Source: a virus. Taken from it: DNA of 25,935 nucleotides. Below, piece after piece: positions 5,716-23,654 of this stretch (position 1 is its first letter; each line of letters starts with the position of its first letter). The position numbers were made by a program, and so were the translations under genes. The stretch is taken from positions 1 through 25,935 of the IMG/VR virus record IMGVR_UViG_3300021425_001956. One strand, written 5' to 3'. The notes beneath the pieces are model-generated. The model was given only the letters and a program-made list of their open reading frames with translations. It ran no database searches and was not told where the DNA came from.

Positions 5716-6129
5716 ATGAATCAATGGCACCATGACATCAATGAAATGCATGCTAAGTATGGCGTGCATGATTGGATGGAAAAGAACAAAGACAATCCGG
5801 AACTCATGCAAAAGTTTCTCGACTTTCGTATTAAGTTCCTTGAAGAAGAATTAAATGAAACAAAGGCAGCAGCCACATACGATCGCAACGCACCCGAAGT
5901 TGTTGACGGTCTGATCGATCTTTGTGTGATTGCAATCGGTACTCTCGATGCTTTCGGTGTTGACGCTCAGAAAGCATGGGAAGCTGTACACACAGCGAAT
6001 ATGGCCAAAGAAGTTGGTGTAAAAGAAAGCAGACCAAATCCACTTGGTCTACCAGATTTGATTAAGCCTGAAGGTTGGGTAGGACCGAAACATCATGACA
6101 ACACCGGTAATCTCGGGGACGCTGTTTAA
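5716..6129 (+). CDS. MazG/HisE-like nucleoside triphosphate pyrophosphohydrolase
   Basis: The 137-residue all-alpha protein has the metal-binding EEExxE signature (residues 43-48, FLEEELNET) and a second acidic helix with E61, D64 and D68 (APEVVDGLIDLCV). It ends with the usual AWEAVHTANMAKE motif. Family members hydrolyse (d)NTPs to NMP and pyrophosphate. In a phage that may modify cytosine, it could play the dCTPase part filled by gp56 in T4; that is inference. ATG 5716 follows GAAGGAG and its own promoter. The last 35 bases overlap the next gene. Confidence 0.82.
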   Translation: MNQWHHDINEMHAKYGVHDWMEKNKDNPELMQKFLDFRIKFLEEELNETKAAATYDRNAPEVVDGLIDLCVIAIGTLDAFGVDAQKAWEAVHTANMAKEVGVKESRPNPLGLPDLIKPEGWVGPKHHDNTGNLGDAV

Positions 6130-7391: not shown

Positions 7392-7543
7392 TGACTGAAG
7401 CGCTTAAAAAATATTTCGAAAATGGTGGCACAATTACAAAGTGTCGACCTTCTAACAAACGTCCAGAGCCACGCAGATATTCTGGTTCTACAGCAAATCG
7501 TGGTCGCAAAGCTGAAACATTAGGTGATAGGAGATATTTCTAA
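7391..7543 (+). CDS. Basic phage protein of unknown function, 50 aa
   Basis: ATG 7391 overlaps the previous stop and the frame ends in TAA 7541-7543, overlapping the next ATG. The first 13 residues are helical (MTEALKKYFENGG). The rest is very basic and poor in hydrophobic residues (CRPSNKRPEPRRY, TANRGRKAETLGDRRYF), which suggests a nucleic-acid-binding tail. GATAGGAG, the ribosome-binding site of the next gene, lies inside its end. Function unknown. Confidence 0.6.
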   Translation: MTEALKKYFENGGTITKCRPSNKRPEPRRYSGSTANRGRKAETLGDRRYF

Positions 7544-7914
7544 TGAAATATTCTTTAAAGGTGCTGCAACGCGCAGCTGAAATTCAAACAAAGAAAAGTT
7601 CGGATTATCAAAATCCGAACTCACGTATTAAACAAGCAGATTACTATGTTCGTGGTTGTTCTACGATCCTCGATACAATCCATGCGAAAGTTCTTCGTAT
7701 GCAATCTGTTTGTGAAGCAATGGAAGCTGATCCAAACTATGGTCAAAACTTCGAATCACTCGAAGACTCTTGTCTTGATCTGATTAACTATGCTTCCTTC
7801 TTTGCCTCATACATGAATGGTGAGATGGAAGGTCAAGACCCAAGTCGTGACATGTTCAATAGACCTGCAAAGGAAACAACAAATGAAAATCGGGATAACA
7901 GCGTCGACGTTTGA
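7543..7914 (+). CDS. Nmad1/DUF1599-like protein
   Basis: This 123-residue protein resembles the nucleotide-modification-associated domain 1 family (DUF1599). It shows KKSSDYQNPNSRIKQADYY, a Leu/Lys-rich helix (TIHAKVLRMQSVCEAM) and the acidic SLEDSCLDLINYASF motif, close to the family's E-x3-D-L-I-N-Y-A signature. Nmad domains were defined by their association with modified-base genes in phages; their chemistry is not settled. It lies just upstream of a cytidylyltransferase and a TS-fold gene, which fits that theme. The end overlaps the next gene by 32 bases. Confidence 0.6.
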   Translation: MKYSLKVLQRAAEIQTKKSSDYQNPNSRIKQADYYVRGCSTILDTIHAKVLRMQSVCEAMEADPNYGQNFESLEDSCLDLINYASFFASYMNGEMEGQDPSRDMFNRPAKETTNENRDNSVDV

Positions 7915-8329
7915 TCTGTTACACGCAGGTCACATCGAAATGTTGCGTGAAGCGAAAGCTCAATGCGACTATTTAATTTGTGCTCTACAAATCGATCCAA
8001 GTATTGATAGGCCAGAAAAAAATCAACCCGTACAGACGATCGTAGAGCGTTACACTCAACTTGATGCCGTAAAGTTTGTAGATGAAATTATACCGTACTT
8101 ACATGAAACAGATCTCGAAGATATCCTCCAAATGCGTGCAATCACTGTACGAATACTGGGTGAGGAATACCGCGATCGCGATTTTACTGGTCGTGATATT
8201 TGTAAACAGCGAGATATTGATCTCTATTTTAACAAACGCGACCACCGTTTCTCCTCTAGCGGCTTGAGACAGCGCGTACACGGTTTAGAAATAAAAAAGG
8301 AGGTAATGGGTGATGCTCACAGTAAATGA
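7883..8329 (+). CDS. Cytidylyltransferase-family nucleotidyltransferase (TagD-like)
   Basis: The 148-residue protein has the nucleotidyltransferase HxGH motif at H14-A-G-H17 within ITASTFDLLHAGH. The downstream signature, ISSTxxR in relatives, appears as FSSSGLRQR. Length and pattern match glycerol-3-phosphate or ethanolamine-phosphate cytidylyltransferases, which activate a phosphorylated alcohol as a CDP derivative. The true substrate cannot be told. The start is ATG 7883 inside the end of the Nmad1-like gene; the longer upstream frame is not needed. The end overlaps the next gene. Confidence 0.85.
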   Translation: MKIGITASTFDLLHAGHIEMLREAKAQCDYLICALQIDPSIDRPEKNQPVQTIVERYTQLDAVKFVDEIIPYLHETDLEDILQMRAITVRILGEEYRDRDFTGRDICKQRDIDLYFNKRDHRFSSSGLRQRVHGLEIKKEVMGDAHSK

Positions 8330-8981
8330 TATCCGAAAATATTTTATTCAGGAGTTACAAGATGAAAATTTCACGGTGGATCGCACAGACTCAAAGACCA
8401 TCGAACTTATCGGTGCAAGTTTCATCGCTGATGAGGAAGCAATCTTTGGTGAGCCGAATATTCCTTATATTGATGCTGAGCTCGATTGGTATCTTAACTG
8501 TTCAACTAACATCAACGATATCGGATATAAAGACGAGCCTCCAAAGGCTTGGACATATGCAGCAAATAAATACGGAGAAATTAACAGTAATTATGGAAAA
8601 CTCATCTTCGATGATAAATACTACAGACAGTACGACAACGTCCTCAACGAACTAGCGGACAATCCTTTTAGTCGTCGTGCTACAATGGTTTATACACGAC
8701 CTTCGATATGGACAGAGTTCAATGAGAATGGTAAAAACGATTTTATTTGTACTAATGCTGTTACTTATTACATACGCGATGACCAAGTCCACGCTGTATG
8801 CCAAATGCGATCAAACGACGTCGTGTTTGGATACAAGAATGATTATGCTTGGCAGCGTTATGTAATGGATCTCGTTGCAACCGATCTGTCTGGTGGCAAT
8901 AAAAACTACACTGCTGGTAATCTATATTGGCAAGTGCAAAACCTCCACGTTTACGAAAGGCATTTTGATCTTGTCAAATAA
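8313..8981 (+). CDS. Thymidylate synthase-fold enzyme, probable dCMP hydroxymethylase
   Basis: From ATG 8313 (222 aa) the protein aligns without gaps to E. coli ThyA around the active site: catalytic C146 (FICTNA), R166-S-x-D169, G173 and, further on, H-x-Y (LHVYERH, H212). The residue at 177 is Asp where thymidylate synthases have Asn. Asn to Asp here is the known switch from dUMP to dCMP recognition in T4 dCMP hydroxymethylase (gp42). A ThyX elsewhere in the window already covers dTMP synthesis. The protein is shorter than ThyA (264 aa). AAGGAGG is at 8297-8303; GTG 8310 is an alternative start. The product would be 5-hydroxymethyl-dCMP. Confidence 0.75.
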   Translation: MLTVNDIRKYFIQELQDENFTVDRTDSKTIELIGASFIADEEAIFGEPNIPYIDAELDWYLNCSTNINDIGYKDEPPKAWTYAANKYGEINSNYGKLIFDDKYYRQYDNVLNELADNPFSRRATMVYTRPSIWTEFNENGKNDFICTNAVTYYIRDDQVHAVCQMRSNDVVFGYKNDYAWQRYVMDLVATDLSGGNKNYTAGNLYWQVQNLHVYERHFDLVK

Positions 8982-9444
8982 ATGGGATCTACGTTTCCTT
9001 GAATTAGCAAGAGGCATAGCTGAATGGTCAAAAGATCCTTCACGTAAAATCGGTGCGATTGCAGTCGATGACCGGTCTGTTGTGGCTCAAGGTTATAACG
9101 GTTTCCCACGTGGCATTGAAGACTATGCCGAGCGATACGAAGATCGCGATCTCAAATACAAGTTAGTCGTTCATGCAGAAATGAACGTCATATATAATGC
9201 TACGTACAATGGAGTATCTCTTGATGGTGCAACGTTGTACGTATGGGGTTTGCCAGTTTGTGGTGACTGCGCCAAGGGTGTGATACAAACTGGAATTAAA
9301 AGAGTGGTGATGCCCAAACAGGATATCCCAGAACATTGGGCAGAATCATGGAACTTAACAAAACAAATGTTCGAAGAGACGAACGTAAGATGGGAGTTTA
9401 TCGATGTCAGCAACACAGGAATGGATCAAAGAACAATTTGCTAG
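8971..9444 (+). CDS. cd: Deoxycytidylate deaminase
   Basis: The zinc-dependent deaminase fold is clear: H68-A-E70 (VVHAEMNVI) supplies one ligand and the proton shuttle, and C97/C100 (LPVCGDC) supply the other ligands. GYNGFPRG is the usual substrate loop. It converts dCMP to dUMP, feeding dTMP synthesis by ThyX. The frame runs back into the upstream gene, and no ATG precedes the domain. TTG 8971 (MSNKWDLRF) with GAAAGG ten bases upstream is the best start; TTG 8965 is also possible. It overlaps the TS-like gene by 11 bases, so the two enzymes that compete for dCMP are coupled. Confidence 0.9.
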   Translation: MSNKWDLRFLELARGIAEWSKDPSRKIGAIAVDDRSVVAQGYNGFPRGIEDYAERYEDRDLKYKLVVHAEMNVIYNATYNGVSLDGATLYVWGLPVCGDCAKGVIQTGIKRVVMPKQDIPEHWAESWNLTKQMFEETNVRWEFIDVSNTGMDQRTIC

Positions 9445-9556
9445 AGATTCAAAACCGGTGATCACCGAGTATTCATTGCAAAAAGAGGTAAATGAATTAA
9501 GGGAAGACGTAAAGAAACTTCAAGAAGACATATCATGGTTAATGCGACAAGGGTAA
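9404..9556 (+). CDS. Short coiled-coil protein, 50 aa
   Basis: ATG 9404 lies within the deaminase end in another frame, with GGGAG (9392-9396) seven bases upstream. The product has an N-terminal WIKEQFARDSKP stretch and a C-terminal heptad helix (SLQKEVNELREDVKKLQEDI) typical of a small dimeric coiled coil. It overlaps both neighbours. The coiled-coil character and ribosome-binding site support it; function unknown. Confidence 0.6.
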   Translation: MSATQEWIKEQFARDSKPVITEYSLQKEVNELREDVKKLQEDISWLMRQG

Positions 9557-9918
9557 TTGTAATAGGTCATAGTCCAGGCAATTCCAAAATAAAATTTAAA
9601 TCGAAATCACCCACCTTAAGAAGACTCGATATGTGGCTGGGTGAATGTGATGTGAACTTATATAGCTTTGTGAATCTCTGTGCATCCAGTGTCAGTTCTC
9701 TGAAATCAGCACAAATTGATGAAACATTAATTCAAGAATGTATTCAAGGCTATACAAAGATTATAGCATTAGGTAACGAAGTATCACATTATTTCACAAA
9801 AAGAGGTGTGGAGCACTTTCCGGCTCCACACCCTTCTCCACTTAATAGGAAGTTTAACGATAAAACCTTTGAACCGGCAGTAATTAAAGGTTTACAATCG
9901 TATCTAAATAGTGTATAA
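9535..9918 (+). CDS. Uracil-DNA glycosylase superfamily protein
   Basis: The 127-residue protein has a UDG-fold pattern: strand plus GHSPG at 11-15 (RVIVIGHSPGNS), LYSFVNLCAS, TKIIALGNEVSHYF, and the H-P-S-P-L-N-R motif at 99-105 matching the HPSPLS motif of UDGs. It is shorter than UNG and lacks the canonical GQDPYH water-activating loop. It may be a specialised glycosylase or a base- or nucleotide-binding relative. It sits beside the putative cytosine-modification genes. The start is ATG 9535 inside the previous small gene. A 10-bp inverted repeat lies in its coding sequence. Confidence 0.65.
   Translation: MVNATRVIVIGHSPGNSKIKFKSKSPTLRRLDMWLGECDVNLYSFVNLCASSVSSLKSAQIDETLIQECIQGYTKIIALGNEVSHYFTKRGVEHFPAPHPSPLNRKFNDKTFEPAVIKGLQSYLNSV
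9805..9832 (+). repeat. Perfect 10-bp inverted repeat inside the UDG-like gene
   Basis: GGTGTGGAGC (9805-9814) and GCTCCACACC (9823-9832) are exact complements around an eight-base loop. The arms are much more GC-rich than the surroundings. There is no T-run after it, so it is not a standard terminator. It spans the codons leading into the HPSP motif. Confidence 0.6.
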
Positions 9919-9941: not shown

Positions 9942-10958
9942 ATGAAGATCTTGATCACCGGCATGAACAAGCAACAGTGCACCGAAAACTTTTACAAGGG
10001 TTCACAGCTTAAAATTATTCCTTCACATATTTCTCTGATCGCATGCCTCAGAGATATGGGACATACCGTCGAACAGCGTATCGTCACCATCGGTGAAGAC
10101 CTTTCCTCATACGACAAAATTATTTGTTACATCCACAATCCATCAGGTTTTGCAGGCTTTGTGTATAATGCTTTATGGCTAATCAATGAAGTACCTGACT
10201 GTGTACTTGCATTTGATGACTGGCAGACTGACAGCATTTACAAAGGTCTTACCGCACTTGAAGATACTGAAAAACTTTTCCGTAAATATGTTCTCGATGG
10301 TCATAAGCATATACCTGATAACATTCGAGATTATGAAAAGCAATTGTTGCAAGGTATCTCAATTGTAAAACAGAAAAAGAATAAGATGTTGATCAGCGCA
10401 TTTGCTGGCGGTAATCTTACAAGACTGCTGGATTATCCTGAAGAACTTATGTTCTCTTTTAATCCAAACCCATATCATATCAACTTACAATCCAACTTCA
10501 ATCCACTCTTTGAAGAGAAAGCTCGTGTATTTAACTTTGCCGGGTTAATGCAAGATAAAACAAAGAAGTGGGTTAAAGACCAGAGCATCGGTGAATGGGA
10601 ACTCAAGAAATACGGTTCTCGAAAAGATGGTCAAGATCGTGTAACCGAACCAGAGATGGTCAACATATATGGACAGCAATGGGGTATCCTCATGCCAGGA
10701 TATTTCCATGCTGGCTCTGGCTGGTGGCGAGCAAGACCGCTTCAAGTTGCAGATGCCGGCTCGATTCTGATCGGCGATTGGAAAGAGATGGTGATCTACT
10801 ACGATGACGACGAACTCGCTTCTCTCAAAGGTCAGTGGATTACGTTGATGAGTGATAAACAGCTCGAAGAAGTAGCACACGCCCAAAAAGAAGCCATATA
10901 TAAAACACACCCGCTGGACAAAGGTGTACAGCAGGATGAGTTAAGGAGAATCCTATGA
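9942..10958 (+). CDS. Glycosyltransferase-like protein (GT-B-like)
   Basis: The 338-residue protein begins like a Rossmann-type domain (MKILITGMNKQQ, then SLIACLRDMGHTVEQR and YDKIICYIHNPSG). The second half contains AGSGWWRARPLQVADAGSILIGDWKEMV, the position where GT-B enzymes bind the sugar nucleotide (R-x-x-E/Q-x-x-x-x-G). Membership in a named GT family cannot be shown by eye. The mutase and epimerase that follow overlap head to tail, which suggests it uses the sugar they make. Target could be modified DNA, virion or cell surface. ATG 9942 has CGGAG upstream. Confidence 0.5.
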   Translation: MKILITGMNKQQCTENFYKGSQLKIIPSHISLIACLRDMGHTVEQRIVTIGEDLSSYDKIICYIHNPSGFAGFVYNALWLINEVPDCVLAFDDWQTDSIYKGLTALEDTEKLFRKYVLDGHKHIPDNIRDYEKQLLQGISIVKQKKNKMLISAFAGGNLTRLLDYPEELMFSFNPNPYHINLQSNFNPLFEEKARVFNFAGLMQDKTKKWVKDQSIGEWELKKYGSRKDGQDRVTEPEMVNIYGQQWGILMPGYFHAGSGWWRARPLQVADAGSILIGDWKEMVIYYDDDELASLKGQWITLMSDKQLEEVAHAQKEAIYKTHPLDKGVQQDELRRIL

Positions 10959-11965
10959 AGATATTAGTTGTAGGTGCGGGCTTTGCAGGTGCTACGGTTG
11001 CTCGCATTCTTGCAGAAGAAGGTCATGAGATTACGGTAATCGATAAACGTGATCACGTGGCTGGTAATGCGTATGACTATACAAACGAGTATGGCATTCG
11101 TGTACACAAATATGGTCCTCATCTCTTTCATACAAATAACAAGAAGGTCTTTGATTTTCTTGGTCGATTTACTGAATGGGTACCGTATCGTCATAAAGCA
11201 AAAGCTCAGCTTGAAGATGGTCGATATGTACCGTTTCCCGCAAATCGAATTACGAAAGAGATTGTAGGCGAAGAAAACATTCTCGACATTTTCTTCAGAC
11301 CGTATACAAGAAAGATGTGGGGTAAAGAACTTGAAGAGCTTGATCCGAGTATTATTAAGCGTGTACCTGTTAAAGATAATGACAATGAAGATTATTTTCC
11401 AAAAGATAATTACCAAGCGTTACCACTCTTTGGCTATACAGACTTGGTTACACGTATGCTCGACCATGAGAATATCGACGTAAGATTGAATGTGTCTTTC
11501 GATAAGGTATGGCTTAATTACTCGGATCATTGTTTCAACTCGATGCCAATCGACGAGTACTTTGATTTCAATCATGGTGAATTACCGTATCGTTCAATTA
11601 AATTCCACAATACAGATCTTCCGATGTCGAAGGTTCTTCCGACTACGACTGTAAACTTTACACATGATGGTCCATATACAAGAGTTACAGAATGGAAGAA
11701 CATGCCATGTCATGGTTACAATTCAAACTTTACGACATTGACATACGAAGAACCCTGTGATTATCGAGACAACGATATGGAAAGATACTATCCAGTCAAA
11801 GATGTCGACGGTGAGAATCGTGAGAGATACGAGAAATATAAAGAAATGATCAGTCCAAATATGACCTTCATCGGTCGTTGTGGTCAGTATGTTTATGTTG
11901 ACATGCATCAGGCGGTGAACTCAAGCATACAAGTTGCAGAGAAATTTATAAAGGAAAACACATGA
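10955..11965 (+). CDS. glf: UDP-galactopyranose mutase
   Basis: This FAD enzyme interconverts UDP-galactopyranose and UDP-galactofuranose; relatives also act on UDP-arabinopyranose. The 336-residue protein has the dinucleotide-binding GAGFAGA at 7-13, the family motif DHVAGNAYDY with HKYGPHLFHTNN, the FFRPYTRKMWGKELEELDPSIIKRVP segment, and the C-terminal FIGRCGQYVYVDMHQAV that closes the FAD site. Length is near the bacterial norm (about 370-390), slightly short. It overlaps both neighbours by four bases (ATGA), so all three are translated as one unit. Confidence 0.95.
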   Translation: MKILVVGAGFAGATVARILAEEGHEITVIDKRDHVAGNAYDYTNEYGIRVHKYGPHLFHTNNKKVFDFLGRFTEWVPYRHKAKAQLEDGRYVPFPANRITKEIVGEENILDIFFRPYTRKMWGKELEELDPSIIKRVPVKDNDNEDYFPKDNYQALPLFGYTDLVTRMLDHENIDVRLNVSFDKVWLNYSDHCFNSMPIDEYFDFNHGELPYRSIKFHNTDLPMSKVLPTTTVNFTHDGPYTRVTEWKNMPCHGYNSNFTTLTYEEPCDYRDNDMERYYPVKDVDGENRERYEKYKEMISPNMTFIGRCGQYVYVDMHQAVNSSIQVAEKFIKENT

Positions 11966-12720
11966 AAATTTCATTAACAGGTGCCAGTGGATTTATTGGC
12001 AATCATCTTCTGACAAAGCTGTGGGATGATGGACACGAAGTCATGAAGTGGGATCGTAAGAGCGGTCGGGATATCAAAGACTGGGAACTCGAAGGCTGTG
12101 ACTTTGTAGTTCATCTTGCTGCCGATGCAGATGTACGTCGTTCGATCCTTGAACCAGATCTGTACTGGGATAATAACGTCGAGACTACCAAACGTATTCA
12201 AGAAATTTGTAGAGTCAATCAAGTCCCGCTGGTCTATGCATCTTCTTCTTGTATTCATGCATGGCATAAATCGCCGTATGGTATCAGTAAGCGTGTCAAC
12301 GAGATCACAGCTTATACTACACCGTTTGGCGTCAATAATCAGGTCGGTCTTCGCTTTACGACAGTCTACGGTGATGGTGCTCGTGATACCATGTTTATGG
12401 GTAAGTTAATGAGAGGCGAAGTCAAGTACGCAACAAATCACGTTCGTGACTTTATTCATGTCGATGATGTTGTAAAAGCCATCATGATCTTTATAAATAC
12501 AGGTACCAAAGGTAAACTTCCAGCGTATGACGTTGGTACTGGAACTGGCCATATTGTATCTAAGCTCGCACAAATCAAATATCCGAATATCGAAATCCGA
12601 GAGGGTGACGACTGCGAAGCACAGGATAATACAGCAGACAATTCTGATCTAAGAGCACTCGGTTGGGAACCGACAATAAATGCTCGTGGCTATGTACAAA
12701 ACAATGGAAATGTGATATAA
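11962..12720 (+). CDS. NAD-dependent sugar epimerase/dehydratase (extended SDR)
   Basis: The 252-residue protein has the NAD motif GASGFIG at 7-13, LAADADVR, the serine strand YASSSC (92-97) and catalytic Y106-x3-K110 (SPYGISK). RDFIHVDD, typical of extended SDRs such as GalE and RmlB, follows. It likely acts on a nucleotide sugar, for example making the UDP-hexose or UDP-pentose used by the mutase upstream. It is shorter than GalE (about 340). The last codons hold the promoter for uvsX. Confidence 0.9.
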   Translation: MKISLTGASGFIGNHLLTKLWDDGHEVMKWDRKSGRDIKDWELEGCDFVVHLAADADVRRSILEPDLYWDNNVETTKRIQEICRVNQVPLVYASSSCIHAWHKSPYGISKRVNEITAYTTPFGVNNQVGLRFTTVYGDGARDTMFMGKLMRGEVKYATNHVRDFIHVDDVVKAIMIFINTGTKGKLPAYDVGTGTGHIVSKLAQIKYPNIEIREGDDCEAQDNTADNSDLRALGWEPTINARGYVQNNGNVI

Positions 12721-12741: not shown

Positions 12742-13788
12742 ATGTCGATTATGGATAAACTCAAGAAGAACAGTAAAGTCAAAGAAACTTCTGTTCTATC
12801 TGAATCAAAATTCTTTACAGAGAAAGATATGGTTGCAACAGATGTTCCAATGATGAACGTTGCTCTGTCTGGCTCTATGGATGGCGGTCTTGCGCCCGGT
12901 CTGACGGTACTTGCGGGCCCATCAAAACACTTTAAGACCTCGTTTGGTCTGATTATGGCAGCAGCTTATTTGAGAAAATACAAAGACGCTGTGCTTCTCT
13001 TCTACGATTCAGAGTTTGGTTCACCCCAAGCTTATTTCGAACAGTATGATATCGATACATCGCGTGTCCTTCATACACCGATTACGAACGTAGAAGAACT
13101 CAAGTTTGATCTGATCGGTCAACTTGAACAACTCGATCGTAAAGACAAAGTCGTCGTTATGATTGATTCTGTTGGTAACCTAGCATCTAAAAAAGAATTG
13201 GAAGATGCTATCAACGAGAAGTCGGTTGCAGATATGTCACGTGCGAAAGCACTTAAAGGTCTGTTCCGTATGACAACTCCGTATCTGAACATGAAAGATA
13301 TTCCACTGATTGCAGTCAATCATACTTACATGGAAATCGGTCTGTTCCCGAAAGCTGTAGTATCTGGTGGTACAGGTATTTACTATTCGGCAGATAATAT
13401 CTGGATTCTTGGTCGTCGTCAGAACAAACAAGGCACTGAAGTGACTGGCTATGATTTTGTAATTAATGTGGAGAAATCGCGTTATGTTAAAGAAAAATCT
13501 AAAATCCCTATTAGCGTCTCTTGGAGCGGTGGTGTCGAGCGGTATTCTGGTCTACTCGACGTGGCTCTCGCAGGGAACTTTGTTGCAAAGCCTAGCAATG
13601 GTTGGTATTCTCGTGTCGATACTAGCACTGGAGAGTTCCTCGGAACCAAAGTCCGAGAAAAAGAAACCCTAAGTGAAGAGTTCTGGAAGCCAATCTTTGA
13701 CGAGACAAACTTCGCAGAATATATAAAAGAAAGCTTCTCAATCGGTGGCAATCGTTCGAACGAACTGGATATCGAAAATGAAGCATGA
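12742..13788 (+). CDS. uvsX: RecA-like recombinase UvsX
   Basis: The 348-residue strand-exchange ATPase has Walker A as GPSKHFKTS (59-67), Walker B as VVVMIDSVGNL (D142), and the DNA-binding loop region MSRAKALKGLFRMTTPYLN. The GGTGIYYSADNIWILGRRQ segment is typical of T4-type UvsX. It coats single-stranded DNA for recombination-dependent replication and repair. ATG 12742 follows AAGGAG (12729-12734) and its own promoter. As in T4, it lies just before the gp41 helicase gene. Confidence 0.97.
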   Translation: MSIMDKLKKNSKVKETSVLSESKFFTEKDMVATDVPMMNVALSGSMDGGLAPGLTVLAGPSKHFKTSFGLIMAAAYLRKYKDAVLLFYDSEFGSPQAYFEQYDIDTSRVLHTPITNVEELKFDLIGQLEQLDRKDKVVVMIDSVGNLASKKELEDAINEKSVADMSRAKALKGLFRMTTPYLNMKDIPLIAVNHTYMEIGLFPKAVVSGGTGIYYSADNIWILGRRQNKQGTEVTGYDFVINVEKSRYVKEKSKIPISVSWSGGVERYSGLLDVALAGNFVAKPSNGWYSRVDTSTGEFLGTKVREKETLSEEFWKPIFDETNFAEYIKESFSIGGNRSNELDIENEA

Positions 13789-15586: not shown

Positions 15587-15792
15587 TGCTGGTAGGATCT
15601 TTTGTCACAGACTCGAATGGTATTGAGCATTTTATTGAAAATAAAAGTGCGGGCTATTATCTATTACAAGATGCTCAGATTATGATCAATGAATTGAAAC
15701 ATACAGACGTACAAGAAAAATGGAAAAGACAAATAGATGAACGTAAGACTGATCAGTTACTCACAGACTCCGGAGGATCTCTATGTCGGTGA
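15586..15792 (+). CDS. Phage protein of unknown function, 68 aa
   Basis: ATG 15586 shares a base with the previous stop. The first 30 residues look like a small beta domain (MLVGSFVTDSNGIEHFIENKSAGYYLLQD). A charged helix follows (AQIMINELKHTDVQEKWKRQIDERKTDQ). It overlaps the thyX start by 56 bases, and its C-terminal GGSLCR region is encoded over that overlap. No known family recognised. Confidence 0.6.
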   Translation: MLVGSFVTDSNGIEHFIENKSAGYYLLQDAQIMINELKHTDVQEKWKRQIDERKTDQLLTDSGGSLCR

Positions 15793-16405
15793 AGATATAC
15801 AAGAACTCATTGCGTATTGCGCCCGTGTCTCGAACCCCTCGAACCAAGATAACACCGAAACGTCCGAAAGATTGCTATCATACCTTGCAAAACACGCGCA
15901 TTGGTCGCCTTTCGAAATGGTGTCTGCTTGCCTAGAGATTGAAACTACAAGAGATATTGCAAGACAGATTCTTCGTCATCGTTCTTTCTCTTTTCAAGAG
16001 TTTAGTCAGAGATATGCGAATCCACTTGAAGATCTAAAACTAACACCTACGACTGAAATCAGAGCACAAGATCCAAAGAATCGTCAAAACTCGGTAGAGC
16101 GCGAAGATGTTGATATTCAAATGGATTGGGTCAAAGCACAGTGTGAAGTAATTAATGCTGCAAAGAAAGCATATCAGTTTGCAATCGATAATGGTATCGC
16201 AAAAGAGATTGCACGTAAAGTATTACCAGAAGGCTTGACTGAATCACGATTGTATATGAATGGTACAATTCGTTCTTGGATTCATTTCATTGAGTTACGG
16301 TCTGGTAACGGTACACAAAAAGAATGCCAAGAGGTTGCACTCGCATGTGCTAAAGCAATTACAGAAATCTTTCCATTAGCGGATAAGTTCATTGCCAAGT
16401 CATAA
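15737..16405 (+). CDS. thyX: FAD-dependent thymidylate synthase ThyX
   Basis: ThyX methylates dUMP to dTMP using methylenetetrahydrofolate, NADPH and FAD. The 222-residue protein has the diagnostic RHRX7S motif as R80-H81-R82...S90 (RHRSFSFQEFS), followed by QRYANP. The N-terminal ARVSNP and the C-terminal RSWIHFIELRSGNGTQKECQEVA are also typical. ATG 15737 lies inside the upstream gene. Because dTMP is made here, the TS-fold gene at 8313-8981 is free for another reaction. Confidence 0.96.
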   Translation: MNVRLISYSQTPEDLYVGEDIQELIAYCARVSNPSNQDNTETSERLLSYLAKHAHWSPFEMVSACLEIETTRDIARQILRHRSFSFQEFSQRYANPLEDLKLTPTTEIRAQDPKNRQNSVEREDVDIQMDWVKAQCEVINAAKKAYQFAIDNGIAKEIARKVLPEGLTESRLYMNGTIRSWIHFIELRSGNGTQKECQEVALACAKAITEIFPLADKFIAKS

Positions 16406-19101: not shown

Positions 19102-20125
19102 TTTAAAAGACTGTCCTCAAATGATTACTGATCTCTTCTATGAAGAGATCGAAACAATTCAGAGGTCTGACCTTTTACTAAAACAAAATTATACGCTTGA
19201 AAGATTAAAGCTCGATGACATGTTGTCTTTCAATATACTTATTGATGATGACATCGATATCGTTTGCTTCGGTGGGCTGCAAAAGATAAGTGAAGAGGTT
19301 GCGAGAGTTTCATCGCGACATTATGTTTCTCAAAAATATGTAAAGACTTGGAAGCAAGATCGATTTAGACCAAACTGGCAGTATCTAGTGCCAAAACAAA
19401 TTCAACATGCATATGACTTAGGATACAAAGGTTTATTTTGGTCTGCTCACATCTATAAGAAAAAGTCTCTATTCGATCTTACGTGTAAGAATGCAGAAGA
19501 GTTTACTGACATAAAATTTACACCTTTACCCGGTTTGTACAATATATATGGCGTAGGACAGAGAGTTTGTCAGATCGGTGACTATGATTGCGGATTTGCA
19601 AATGAAAACGTTTTTCTTACTGATATTGAATTTGACAAATATAAAGATGAAATGTATGACATACTGAAAAACTATCCTAAAGCAAACGAAGGATGGGATG
19701 ATTCGAATCCATGGAAAGGTGAATGGATAGATGCTGATAGTGAAATCATTCACACTGTAAATCTCAATGAAGTATTACCCGAACATCCATTGATTCATCA
19801 TTTGTATGACTATTTTGAGGATATACATAAAGTCATGGTATGTAATGTGCTCAAAGGTCCGATACCAGAACATCACGATCAAAGTGAACATGCATTAAAA
19901 GACAACATGCATATTAAAATTAAACTTGACGGAGACTGGTCGAAGTTTTATGTAAGAGATCTGAAATACAATTGGAAAAAATATTTTCCTAACGATAAGA
20001 ATGTGGCTATATTTGATAATCAGAAAAATATACATGCTGTAGAATCCGGACAAATGTTGCTTATTGTTCCTTACGGTAAATTGAAAAGAGAAATATATGA
20101 ACGAGTTGATACAGAAAGTCGCTGA
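19088..20125 (+). CDS. Fusion: acyltransferase-like N-terminus and 2OG-Fe(II) oxygenase-like C-terminus
   Basis: The 345-residue protein has two parts. Residues 50-165 look GNAT-like: DDDIDIVCFGGLQ, then EEVARVSSRHYVSQKY with a helix and LGYKGLFWSAHIYKKKSLFDL. Residues 175-335 look like an aspartyl/asparaginyl hydroxylase-type cupin, with H262-x-D264 (EHHDQSEH), a second His at 316 (KNIHAVESGQ) and IKIKLDGDWSKFYV between. A Fe(II)/2OG oxygenase activity is plausible. Substrate unknown. ATG 19088 lies within the desaturase end (14-base overlap); the 3' end overlaps the next gene by 29 bases. Confidence 0.55.
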   Translation: MKVYDLKDCPQMITDLFYEEIETIQRSDLLLKQNYTLERLKLDDMLSFNILIDDDIDIVCFGGLQKISEEVARVSSRHYVSQKYVKTWKQDRFRPNWQYLVPKQIQHAYDLGYKGLFWSAHIYKKKSLFDLTCKNAEEFTDIKFTPLPGLYNIYGVGQRVCQIGDYDCGFANENVFLTDIEFDKYKDEMYDILKNYPKANEGWDDSNPWKGEWIDADSEIIHTVNLNEVLPEHPLIHHLYDYFEDIHKVMVCNVLKGPIPEHHDQSEHALKDNMHIKIKLDGDWSKFYVRDLKYNWKKYFPNDKNVAIFDNQKNIHAVESGQMLLIVPYGKLKREIYERVDTESR

Positions 20126-20921
20126 AGAAGGAATTGTAGTACTTAAAAATCAGCATATGTCTGACGAAGAGTTCTACCAGAAAAATCTAACGTGGGGTAA
20201 ACATCAAGCGTCTGGCATCCACGCATGTCATGAAGATTATCCTATCATATTTCGTGTCACAAATAAAAAGTTGCCTAACGGCAAACAAGGTCTGTTTAGT
20301 CGTGGCTTCTTAGATTGGCACTGTAATAATATGTTCTGCGTTGATCCAGAAGAAGTTGTATGTTTATGGGGTAAGAAGGTCATCAAAGATGCTCCTACTA
20401 TTTGGGCACATTGTACAAATATGTACCGAGACCTACCAGAAACTCTGAAAAAAGAATTGGATGATGTTTGGGTTACAATGTCCAATATCCATAACATCAA
20501 GGATGGTGGGCGGATCTATACCGGTGCAGGTGATCTCGATATGGAAGATGTAATCAAACTTGATAAGTGGAACTTCCGTACACGTGAGGGATTAGAAGCT
20601 GGGTTATTTGATCCGAACTTTAGTGCCAAACAACTGAAGTCGGGTCGGTATCTAATAAAGGTGAAAAAGAAGCTTGTGAGGATTCACCCAGTGACCGGAG
20701 AGAAAGTTCTATACTTCCCGTTTGGTCATATGTCAGATTTTCCACGTAAGGATGAGTTAATCGAGCGACTGATGCAACCACAATATATCTACACCCATGA
20801 ATGGGAAGAGGGTGACATCGTGTTTTCGGATCAGCTTATGACAATTCATAAACGTGATGCGACACTTGATACTGAAGAGAAAAGAGAATTGTACAGAACA
20901 ACATTCTACTACGATGTATAA
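20097..20921 (+). CDS. TauD/TfdA-like 2OG oxygenase homologue with altered metal motif
   Basis: The 274-residue protein follows the TauD layout: LDWHCNNMF (first metal motif, residues 73-80), IHPVTGEKVLYFPFGHMSDF (196-215), WEEGDIVFSDQLMTIHKRD (236-254, distal His 251) and RTTFY (R267, expected to bind 2-oxoglutarate). The first motif reads H75-x-N77 where the family has H-x-D, so the carboxylate ligand is replaced by Asn. Activity may be lost or changed. ATG 20097 overlaps the previous gene. The end overlaps the FkbM gene. Confidence 0.75.
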   Translation: MNELIQKVAEEGIVVLKNQHMSDEEFYQKNLTWGKHQASGIHACHEDYPIIFRVTNKKLPNGKQGLFSRGFLDWHCNNMFCVDPEEVVCLWGKKVIKDAPTIWAHCTNMYRDLPETLKKELDDVWVTMSNIHNIKDGGRIYTGAGDLDMEDVIKLDKWNFRTREGLEAGLFDPNFSAKQLKSGRYLIKVKKKLVRIHPVTGEKVLYFPFGHMSDFPRKDELIERLMQPQYIYTHEWEEGDIVFSDQLMTIHKRDATLDTEEKRELYRTTFYYDV

Positions 20922-21510
20922 TTTATTTAGATCAAAAAGTAAAAAACAAAGAGCTGCACACTTAAGATATTTTTTGGTGCACATGCTTTACAAATATCAA
21001 TTTCAGTTTGATACTTATGTTGATGTTGGTGCATGTAATAGTGTAGAGCTGAATCAATACTGCGATCTCTTTGACAATGTTGTAGGATTTGAACCGAATC
21101 CTTATGCGTCAATTAAATCTCGAGATAATCTAACTCTTTATAAAAATGCATTGTCTAATAGAGAGGAAGTCAGACTGTTTCATATCGATAAAACTACTCC
21201 ACATTTTTCGACAATGAATTGGGAAAAAATGAGAGAATATGTGCCGCGTGGTCATGAGTGGGAAGATATTGAAATTACTACAAAGAAACTCGATGACTTT
21301 GATCTTACACCAAATTGCATTAAGATTGATACTGAAGGTGAAGATGATGCTGTAGTTCAAGGAGCTCTTGAAACAATTCAAAGTTACAAGCCGATATTGT
21401 ACCTCGAGTTTATGAGTGACGAGACAAAACAGATTCTTATAGATATAGGATATAGCGTTGAATATTCAGAATGGATAGACAACTTCTTAATTCACAAGGA
21501 TTACCTATGA
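20914..21510 (+). CDS. FkbM-family methyltransferase
   Basis: The 198-residue SAM-dependent methyltransferase has YVDVGACNS (motif I, 35-43), VVGFEPNPYA with E60, a middle NALSNREEVRLFHI and CIKIDTEGEDDAVVQGA, the usual FkbM motif K-I-D-x-E-G. FkbM enzymes O-methylate sugars and natural products. A basic N-terminal helix (LFRSKSKKQRAAHLRYFL) precedes the domain. ATG 20914 overlaps the TauD-like stop; the end overlaps the next start (ATGA). It could methylate a sugar or hydroxyl made by its neighbours; that is inference. Confidence 0.88.
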   Translation: MYNLFRSKSKKQRAAHLRYFLVHMLYKYQFQFDTYVDVGACNSVELNQYCDLFDNVVGFEPNPYASIKSRDNLTLYKNALSNREEVRLFHIDKTTPHFSTMNWEKMREYVPRGHEWEDIEITTKKLDDFDLTPNCIKIDTEGEDDAVVQGALETIQSYKPILYLEFMSDETKQILIDIGYSVEYSEWIDNFLIHKDYL

Positions 21511-22130
21511 TTGATATGGTCAAAATTATCGACGACATCCCGTCATTTCAAGATGCGTGTCAGGAGTGTATGAAATACGGTGATGTTGATCTAGAATTAG
21601 ATTTGAAAAAGGTAACACACGAAGAGGTCGCTACTGTGCCATTACAGACTTGGCATCAGGATGGATCTCATGTAAGATATTTTCCAAAGTACAGCGCACT
21701 ATGGTGTGAAACGGCAAAGGAAGATGCACCAATTACACAGATCATATCAACAAGATTACCGGCAGTTATTGCAGAAAAATACATTGATGAAGAAGTTGTA
21801 ATGGATTTTAAAAAGACAATTGATGAAGGTTCATTCTTTAAATTTAAGAAAGAATCTCATGCTCGTCTTTATGCTATGAAAGCAAATAAAACGCCTATGC
21901 CTTTGATCGAAAAAGATGAGAGAGGTTACTACACAAGATGGTGTCCATTCATCAAAGATCCGGATAACAAATATGAACATCTTGGAATGATTATTCTTGC
22001 TCGAGATATTACAAACATTCAGTGGAAACCGAATCGACTTGTCATCATGGAGAATAAAGCAACATTACACAGACGTAAGCCTGGAACATATGATGGAGAC
22101 AGAGTACTGTGGAGAGCTTATATAAGGTAA
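21507..22130 (+). CDS. TauD/TfdA-like 2OG-Fe(II) oxygenase
   Basis: The 207-residue protein has an intact metal triad: H50-Q-D52 (TWHQDGSHVRYFPKY) and H188 (RLVIMENKATLHRRKPG), with R199 or R203 (DRVLWRAYIR) for 2-oxoglutarate. ITQIISTRLP and WKPNRLVIMEN match the core strands of TauD-like enzymes. Such enzymes hydroxylate small molecules or side chains; substrate unknown. It is shorter than TauD (283). ATG 21507 overlaps the FkbM stop (ATGA) and the stop overlaps the next ATG. Confidence 0.8.
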   Translation: MIDMVKIIDDIPSFQDACQECMKYGDVDLELDLKKVTHEEVATVPLQTWHQDGSHVRYFPKYSALWCETAKEDAPITQIISTRLPAVIAEKYIDEEVVMDFKKTIDEGSFFKFKKESHARLYAMKANKTPMPLIEKDERGYYTRWCPFIKDPDNKYEHLGMIILARDITNIQWKPNRLVIMENKATLHRRKPGTYDGDRVLWRAYIR

Positions 22131-22690
22131 TGGTCATGGGGGCAAGTAACGCCGACAATGACAATAAAACCTGGGTTGATTATCTTTCTTGCGATGGCTA
22201 TGTAGTACACAATGCAGCAGTGCGTGGCACGTCATGCGACGTACTCATCGATCAGTGGGAAAGTAACAAATGGTTCGAGCCGAATCTTGTTTTGCTAGAC
22301 ACTCCACCCCTGTTTCGCTTTCATCTTTTTGATATTGCAATAGGCGGTATCGGTCGAGATGTTCTCTATACAGACTGGTTAAAAGAATCCAAACTATATG
22401 CATGGTATAAAAAACAGTGGCCGTATAGAACTCGTGAGTCGTTTGACGTCGTTGTAAATTCACTTAATGATGCTTTAAATGACACACATAACAAAAGAGG
22501 TATGGAAACATTACATCGCAGACAGAGACAGCATGTCGATCATTTGAAACTTTTAGCGCATGTAATTGAATTGCCACAACCAAATGGTGATCTTGACGAA
22601 TTACACTATACGGAAGAAAGACATCAAGAAATAGCAGATATAGCAGAGACCATTATCAATGAACAAATACTTCACTCATCTCGCTCTTGA
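22130..22690 (+). CDS. SGNH/GDSL-like hydrolase
   Basis: The 186-residue protein starts with an SGNH block I, MVMGASNADN (Ser6), and ends its core with a block V, DELHYTEERHQE (D156, H159), the catalytic Asp-His pair. A strand, FEPNLVLLDTPP, lies between. Such enzymes are esterases or acetyl hydrolases, often acting on sugar O-acetyl groups. ATG 22130 overlaps the previous stop (TAATG); GTG 22109 would add seven residues and is an alternative start. The 3' end overlaps the next gene by 32 bases. Confidence 0.7.
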   Translation: MVMGASNADNDNKTWVDYLSCDGYVVHNAAVRGTSCDVLIDQWESNKWFEPNLVLLDTPPLFRFHLFDIAIGGIGRDVLYTDWLKESKLYAWYKKQWPYRTRESFDVVVNSLNDALNDTHNKRGMETLHRRQRQHVDHLKLLAHVIELPQPNGDLDELHYTEERHQEIADIAETIINEQILHSSRS

Positions 22691-23654
22691 TTACGATTCA
22701 GAATCTCTGATAGAAGAATCAAAGACTGCGACGTATAAGCCATTTGAAAGTGGCTATGATAATGGAACGTTCTTTGCACATGCACCAACATGGTTACAAG
22801 GTCGTGTTACTCAATTTGATGATTTTCCTGAAATTAAAAGACTTACTGATTTCATTGCTCATAAAATTAACTCGAAAGATGTACGACCTCGTTTCTATAA
22901 ACAAGAAGCGAACACTGCTGTTCCCATGCATAGAGACCAAAATACAAAATGTTGCGTTAACATCGTATTGTCAGAAGATGCCGCACCAATAGTTTGGGAA
23001 GACATAGGACCAATATCGTATGACTGTGCTCTTTTAAATATCACAGAAAGCCATGAAGTACCAGCTCATCCTCATGAAAGACTTCTTTTAAAGTTTTCGA
23101 TATTTGACGTGACATATGAAGAAGCAGTTAAAAGATGGACAACGCCTATTATAAAAATTGGAGAGGTAGATCTAGACCTATTGCTTTTAGAATCTGATAC
23201 AGTGGAATATGACGGGCAAATATGCCTTCAAGGGGTTAAAGGCAATCTTGATCCTTATTTAGGAATAGGTCAAGCTGGTGGATATAATAGTTGGGAAAGA
23301 CAACAAAAACATAGTTATAAATCTGAGGAATTCAACATACCTATATTCGACTTGAAAAATATAAATGAAGCACTTACAAAGTTTGGTATGGTTCACACGC
23401 GCCTAATGACTGTAAAACCGAAGTCGTGTTATTCTTACCATGTTGACTCTAGAAAAAGACTACATATTCCACTCGAAACAAATGAACACTGTTGGTTTAT
23501 TATTGATAAAGAGATGCATCATTTGCCAGCTGATGGCTCCGTTTATTTGGTTGACACAATGCTACCGCATACGTTTATAAATTGTGGTTCAGAACCTAGA
23601 ACACATATAGTGTCTCAGTCGATAATCAATCCAAATTTATTTAATCTATCATAA
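22659..23654 (+). CDS. Tandem-domain 2OG-Fe(II) oxygenase-like protein
   Basis: The 331-residue protein contains two cupin-type oxygenase-like units. Unit 1 has H91-R-D93 (VPMHRDQNTKCCVNI), H132 (ESHEV) and R141 (ERLLLKF). Unit 2 has H261-V-D263 (YSYHVDSRKRLHIPL), H304 (LPHTFINCG) and R314. Unit 2 resembles Asp/Asn beta-hydroxylase domains, and unit 1 matches the minus-strand protein at 23615-24106. The whole would be a duplicated or fused oxygenase. ATG 22659 is in the SGNH gene end. It runs tail to tail into the minus-strand gene with a 40-base overlap. Confidence 0.68.
   Translation: MNKYFTHLALDYDSESLIEESKTATYKPFESGYDNGTFFAHAPTWLQGRVTQFDDFPEIKRLTDFIAHKINSKDVRPRFYKQEANTAVPMHRDQNTKCCVNIVLSEDAAPIVWEDIGPISYDCALLNITESHEVPAHPHERLLLKFSIFDVTYEEAVKRWTTPIIKIGEVDLDLLLLESDTVEYDGQICLQGVKGNLDPYLGIGQAGGYNSWERQQKHSYKSEEFNIPIFDLKNINEALTKFGMVHTRLMTVKPKSCYSYHVDSRKRLHIPLETNEHCWFIIDKEMHHLPADGSVYLVDTMLPHTFINCGSEPRTHIVSQSIINPNLFNLS

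Follow-up and report, generated by a model that had tools for sequence, protein, structure and literature searches.

A candidate cassette for furanosyl decoration of hydroxymethylcytosine beside a gp42-type gene in marine T4-like phages

Among the closest known systems is that of phage T4, in which the gene for the dCMP hydroxymethylase gp42 (PDB 1B49, 6L18) adjoins the gene for the DNA beta-glucosyltransferase (BGT). Sugars other than glucose are handled by the arabinosyl-cytosine island of phage RB69 (PMC6024577), in which the sugar genes lie between the genes for the DNA polymerase and UvsX and beside a thymidylate synthase (TS) homolog, and the DNA of RB69 and Thanatos carries pentosylated cytosines (PMC6024577, PMC12838424). 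The 5-carbamoyloxymethyl-cytosine system likewise combines a TS homolog with a transferase that acts on 5-hydroxymethylcytosine (hmC), although a carbamoyl group rather than a sugar is transferred (PMC8670742). The Aeromonas phages 44RR, 31, and 25 encode gp42 and no known glucosyltransferase, and the decoration of their hmC was left open (Petrov et al. 2010; PMC2993671). Phage UDP-galactopyranose mutases have been read as cell-wall genes in published work (PMC10611076, PMC6630229). Our literature search recovered no paper that combines hydroxymethylcytosine, UDP-galactopyranose mutase, and phage, and decoration of hmC with a sugar furanose is not described in the literature searched, although an earlier mention outside this literature is possible.

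The window analyzed here is an entire IMG/VR record of 25.9 kb and represents a genome fragment. It contains an island in which, all on the plus strand, a small conserved gene (positions 7543 to 7914) is followed by genes for an RfaE-like nucleotidylyltransferase, a gp42-type enzyme, a dCMP deaminase, a uracil-DNA-glycosylase-like protein, a glycosyltransferase, a mutase, an SDR epimerase, and UvsX. The RB69 island resembles this layout in that a TS homolog has genes for a non-glucose sugar as neighbors in the interval from the DNA polymerase to UvsX, but the RB69 TS homolog is only about 27% identical and the sugar genes encode an isomerase and an NTP-transferase rather than a mutase. Our most far-reaching reading, to which we assign a probability of roughly one half, is that the galactofuranosyl-hmC of this phage is the product of a previously unrecognized DNA glycosyltransferase family, encoded by one of several cassettes that have been swapped beside a constant gp42 gene in marine T4-like phages. 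The cassette is probably a variant of the known hmC glycosylation system with a furanose as the sugar, whereas the gp42-type enzyme itself merely adds an ordinary member to the known gp42 family. The initial annotation of this DNA had ended with hydroxymethylation, and the neighboring genes predict, 1 step beyond it, that the hydroxymethyl group would be further glycosylated.

The open reading frame for the gp42-type protein at positions 8313 to 8981 on the plus strand codes for 222 amino acids from the ATG at 8313, contains no internal stop, and ends with a stop codon at 8981. A GTG in the same frame at 8310 provides an alternative start, while the Shine-Dalgarno-like GGAGG located 9 nucleotides 5' of the ATG suits the ATG start. 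In a phmmer search against PDB chains, residues 2 to 221 matched the T4 deoxycytidylate hydroxymethylase (1B49) with 242.7 bits (E = 3.6e-71), which excludes a chance match, whereas the best true thymidylate synthases obtained only about 26 bits. The protein was about 52% identical to T4 gp42 over its full length, so that the alignment to the crystal structure is settled, and among the matches listed from the phage collection the T4-type proteins were 43% to 53% identical to it and the RB69-type proteins about 25% to 27%. It belongs to PF00303, but its score of 42.8 bits against the NCBIfam thymidylate synthase model, with a cut-off of 327, places it outside the ThyA family.

Numbered from the ATG at 8313, the protein has C146, R166, S167, D169, G173, N176, and D177, with the motifs CTN, RSND, and GYKND beginning at residues 146, 166, and 173. 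A MAFFT alignment agreed with the initial annotation that C146, R166, S167, D169, and G173 fall at the same numbers in Escherichia coli K-12 ThyA and that D177 takes the place of ThyA N177. The accompanying statement that this correspondence has no gaps holds for the stretch from R166 to D177, but not for the whole protein, in which N-terminal and loop indels cancel. The T4 gp42 motif is MRSNDVVFGFRNDYAWQKY, as compared with MRSNDVVFGYKNDYAWQRY in the window; C146 is aligned to T4 C148, and D177 corresponds to T4 D179. Asp was found at this position in every hydroxymethylase-like row of the alignment, including the T4, RB69, Aeromonas, Erwinia, and actinophage homologs, and in each of the 79 readable IMG/VR marine relatives, all of which read RSNDVV[FY]GYKNDY, whereas Asn was present in the 3 true synthases (E. 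coli ThyA and 2 phage enzymes). The proposed association of Asp-177 with the use of dCMP was supported, with one refinement: the residue is conserved in T4 and in the marine relatives, but RB69-type enzymes also have it, so that by itself it does not prove hmC. Since both types share Asp-177, it is the overall similarity that decides between hmC and pentosylated cytosine. The RB69-type homologs lack D169 and G173, and RB69 p048 was 27% identical over residues 51 to 222; the window protein, with neither Asn at 169 nor loss of Gly173, falls outside the RB69 type.

On these sequence grounds, the product of the gene at 8313 to 8981 is, with high confidence, a dCMP hydroxymethylase. It differs from T4 gp42 in having a shorter C-terminus and in working beside a ThyX. 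The suggestion that the gene probably makes 5-hydroxymethyl-dCMP gains strong support from the full-length homology to T4 gp42, the catalytic and selectivity residues, and the presence of ThyX, and the phage DNA is very likely, as judged from its genes, to contain hmC.

The flavin-dependent thymidylate synthase ThyX (15737 to 16405, plus strand) scored 153.5 bits against TIGR02170, above the cut-off of 87.9, and the earlier assumption that it covers dTMP proved sound; a dTMP role of the gp42-type gene is thus unnecessary. The dCMP deaminase gene (8971 to 9444, plus strand; PF00383, E = 3e-18; phrog_174, E = 3e-44), for which a TTG start was assigned by inference, overlaps the stop codon of the gp42-type gene, and together with ThyX this bears out the proposed division of labor between ThyX and the gp42-type enzyme. 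T4-type dNMP kinase (gp1) and dCTPase (gp56), which belong to the T4 gp42 system, were not found in the long marine relatives of the window, which is itself a fragment. Possible stand-ins for these T4-type pathway enzymes are a MazG-like NTP pyrophosphatase (5716 to 6129, plus strand; PF01503, E = 7.3e-9; phrog_671) and the small, all-helical companion of the gp42-type protein encoded at 7543 to 7914 on the plus strand. The latter had a sub-threshold match to DUF1599, "Nucleotide modification associated domain 1" (E = 0.0095), and its predicted structure showed weak matches to dCTPases with Z scores of about 5.5, all fold matches being below 6, which tentatively suggests a dCTPase. A homolog is located beside gp42 also in the cultured Serratia phage Muldoon.

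The RfaE/glycerol-3-phosphate-cytidylyltransferase-like gene (7883 to 8329, plus strand; PF01467, E = 7.7e-11; phrog_7878) was considered as a heptose gene, but this was rejected, as the NCBIfam score of 70.5 was far below the cut-off of 181.5. The small uracil-DNA-glycosylase-like protein (9535 to 9918, plus strand) matched PF03167 with E = 5.7e-4, which is below the Pfam cut-off, and is kept in the island of many relatives. It was also noted that positions 20097 to 23654 of the window contain a run of oxygenase-like genes, for 2 TauD proteins and 1 Asp/Arg hydroxylase, which is interrupted by a gene for an FkbM methyltransferase.

The glycosyltransferase gene (9942 to 10958, plus strand), a candidate for an hmC-DNA glycosyltransferase, belongs to phrog_14998 (E = 1.6e-39), a PHROG of unknown function, and its product matched no Pfam or NCBIfam family. 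A search of its profile against PDB chains by sequence gave nothing meaningful, and neither BGT nor any sequence homology to the BGT family was recovered. The AlphaFold2 model, which was built from 31 natural sequences and had a mean pLDDT of 88.3 and a pTM of 0.86, had SenB-type GT-B enzymes as its top Foldseek matches, while the best match in VIA-align was T4 BGT (1nzd, Z = 17.1, 296 aligned residues, rmsd 3.8; 1j39 and 1qkj were matched as well), ahead of SenB (Z = 15.4) and the T4 alpha-glucosyltransferase (Z = 14.1). The predicted structure thus has a GT-B fold close to that of T4 BGT. A shared fold is no proof of a DNA acceptor, but the genomic context points the same way. The 2 transferases resemble each other in fold and in their vicinity to gp42, and differ in that the window protein has no detectable sequence similarity to T4 BGT and is paired with a mutase, for which reason its donor is probably not UDP-glucose.

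The gene for the UDP-galactopyranose mutase (GLF; 10955 to 11965, plus strand) overlaps the transferase gene by 4 nucleotides, and a second overlap of 4 nucleotides joins it to the SDR gene. Its product scored 185.3 bits against PF03275 (E = 1.5e-54; cut-off 26.3), which makes it a member of the GLF family, and 292.7 bits against TIGR00031, just under the cut-off of 303.75. It matched solved UGM structures with E = 1e-73 and is a clear homolog of the bacterial enzymes (3HDQ, 1WAM), with the FAD-binding and active-site motifs aligned and conserved, but it is about 40 residues shorter than these and is encoded in a phage replication region. The SDR protein (11962 to 12720, plus strand; PF01370, E = 1.5e-27) is a GalE/MoeE5-like nucleotide-sugar epimerase (MoeE5 6kv9, E = 4.8e-18) with a YxxxK motif at residues 106 to 110. 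The right border of the cassette slot is formed by the gene for the UvsX recombinase (12742 to 13788, plus strand), which is 76.6% identical to UvsX of phage C48C1.

In the proposed pathway, the gp42-type enzyme would convert dCMP and methylene-tetrahydrofolate into 5-hydroxymethyl-dCMP, as T4 gp42 does, and this product would be phosphorylated by a kinase and then replace cytosine in the phage DNA. The SDR protein would convert UDP-glucose into UDP-galactose, the mutase would turn UDP-galactose into UDP-galactofuranose, and the GT-B transferase would move the furanose onto the hydroxymethyl group of the DNA base. The sequence itself shows the identity and key residues of gp42, the ThyX, the family of the mutase, the layout of the operon, and the linkage of transferase and mutase to enzymes of hydroxymethyl bases. 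We infer the enzyme activities, DNA as the acceptor, and galactofuranose rather than arabinofuranose or another sugar. Glycosylation of hmC by the window transferase appears likely, glycosylation with a furanose has slightly better than even odds, and the furanose would probably be galactofuranose.

Using the transferase alone as the query, we collected 63 loci. A gp42 gene was located within 2.5 kb upstream of the transferase gene in 39 of the 43 loci with enough upstream sequence, and the mutase gene directly downstream of it in 41 of 60. Among 48 gp42 contigs, the mutase was present in 5 of the 8 with the transferase and in none of the 40 without it (Fisher test, P = 3e-5, ignoring kinship). 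Two contigs of 174 kb (G016) and 123 kb (G002) contained the transferase without an adjacent mutase, with the mutase elsewhere on the contig, and the mutase was absent from 3 long contigs with other cassettes (G001, G003, and G004). The transferase-mutase pair was also identified in unrelated gp42 phages, namely in Aeromonas phages (among them 25, phiAS4, and Aes508), Erwinia phage FBB1, and actinophage DSL-LC01, and the carriers checked (phiAS4, AS-gz, FBB1, and DSL-LC01) had a TS homolog with Asp-177.

Phage C48C1 carries the transferase-mutase pair, and no TS homolog or gp42 was found in it. A Tet_JBP oxygenase gene (L082, 10586 to 12004; PF12851, E = 3e-17), which none of the other genomes in a tested set of 20 contained, was instead located directly upstream of the transferase gene and overlapped it. 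As no C5-methyltransferase was found by PF00145, and the annotated DNA methyltransferase is of the adenine type, the substrate in this phage might be thymine rather than 5mC.

The main alternative, which is rather unlikely, is that the gp42-type enzyme makes hmC while the 3 sugar genes (transferase, mutase, epimerase) are metabolic genes of their own that alter the host surface, for example the LPS O-chain, to block superinfection. Roles at the cell surface have been suggested for mutases and glycosyltransferases of phages (PMC10611076, PMC6630229, PMC7029224), and both gp42 and TET were missing from the contig covered in 4 transferase loci (L146, L147, L175, and L186). However, the genes form an operon between gp42 and UvsX that can be exchanged for cassettes of the T4 DNA alpha-glucosyltransferase type, the transferase fold is closest to T4 BGT, the mutase is absent from gp42 contigs without this transferase, and C48C1, which lacks the TS homolog, has the Tet_JBP gene in the upstream position. 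It was also noted that transferase, mutase, and RfaE-like genes stood in a row in L145, L146, L147, and L150, with no gp42 on the contig, and that this row was also located behind ThyX and SDR genes in L146 and L147.

That the transferase glycosylates hmC with a sugar other than a furanose, the SDR protein making another nucleotide sugar and the mutase serving an unrelated purpose, is improbable. Relatives of the transferase were found with UDP-glucose dehydrogenase (L007, L008, and L022) and, in phages of Providencia and Morganella, within an arabinose island like that of RB69 that lacks a mutase; no mutase accompanied the distant relatives from Providencia, Morganella, Gordonia, and a siphovirus, so that a single donor cannot be assumed for the entire transferase family. 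The 4-nucleotide overlap between the transferase and mutase genes in the window, and the adjacency of the pair in most loci of close transferase relatives and in 3 further phage groups, nevertheless argue for a furanose, and the contig of L007 contains a mutase elsewhere. Membership in PF00303, the frequent naming of relatives as thymidylate synthase, and the Asp-177 of RB69-type homologs would favor a thymidylate synthase, a dUMP hydroxymethylase, or an RB69-type enzyme that uses another substrate or gives 5-hydroxycytosine. This reading of the gp42-type enzyme is very improbable, given its far higher identity to T4 gp42 than to the RB69 type, the Asp at 177, the presence of ThyX, and the absence of D169 and G173 from RB69-type proteins.

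The pairing of transferase and mutase offers a named answer to the question raised by Petrov et al. (2010; PMC2993671), since phage 25, which is cultured, carries this transferase next to the mutase (H80, H115); no transferase match came from 44RR or 31. If galactofuranosyl-hmC is indeed made, phage UDP-galactopyranose mutases annotated as cell-wall genes would have to be re-read as DNA-modification genes, and the furanosyl base would either protect phage DNA from restriction and CRISPR systems in a new way or offer these systems a new target.

We surveyed the slot from gp42 and dCMP deaminase to UvsX in 80 IMG/VR marine gp42 loci. Different cassettes were identified: the transferase-mutase-SDR set of the window; a homolog of the T4 DNA alpha-glucosyltransferase (PF11440) with SDR, UDP-glucose dehydrogenase, and a C5-methyltransferase-like protein; a PLP-fold protein with up to 3 proteins of no assigned function; and NTP-transferase sets. 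The cassette type requires at least 20 changes on the gp42 tree of 73 rows, in which the contig-end row L017 is probably mislabeled. A close cousin, L004, with a gp42 that is 81% identical to that of the window, has a different cassette. Constancy of gp42 next to changing decoration genes would follow if every cassette worked on what gp42 makes, and the swapped cassettes would then represent a catalog of further base modifications in ocean viruses.

Several features of the other cassettes were also observed. The cassette with the PLP-fold protein (phrog_7093) was located in the slot, without a sugar transferase, in 22 of the 80 loci (genes of this cassette are at L074, 3681 to 4856; L015, 12446 to 13432; L070, 3685 to 4626; L041, 6705 to 7760), and its 391-amino-acid protein was matched by none of 50,697 phage records; the cassette possibly represents a different, non-sugar hypermodification of hmC. 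The common combination of the PF11440 homolog, UDP-glucose dehydrogenase, and SDR (L055, 8816 to 10060; L014, 12726 to 13574) would fit the attachment of a uronic acid or a pentose to hmC. A PF00145 C5-cytosine-methyltransferase-like protein (L029, 5947 to 7143; L198; L199) forms the end of many alpha-glucosyltransferase cassettes, which is surprising where hmC is predicted to take the place of cytosine in the genome. Finally, a protein of 432 amino acids in the slot of 2 loci (L048, 3913 to 5211, and L004), the sole match of which was a PHROG of unknown function, reads like a myo-inositol-1-phosphate synthase.
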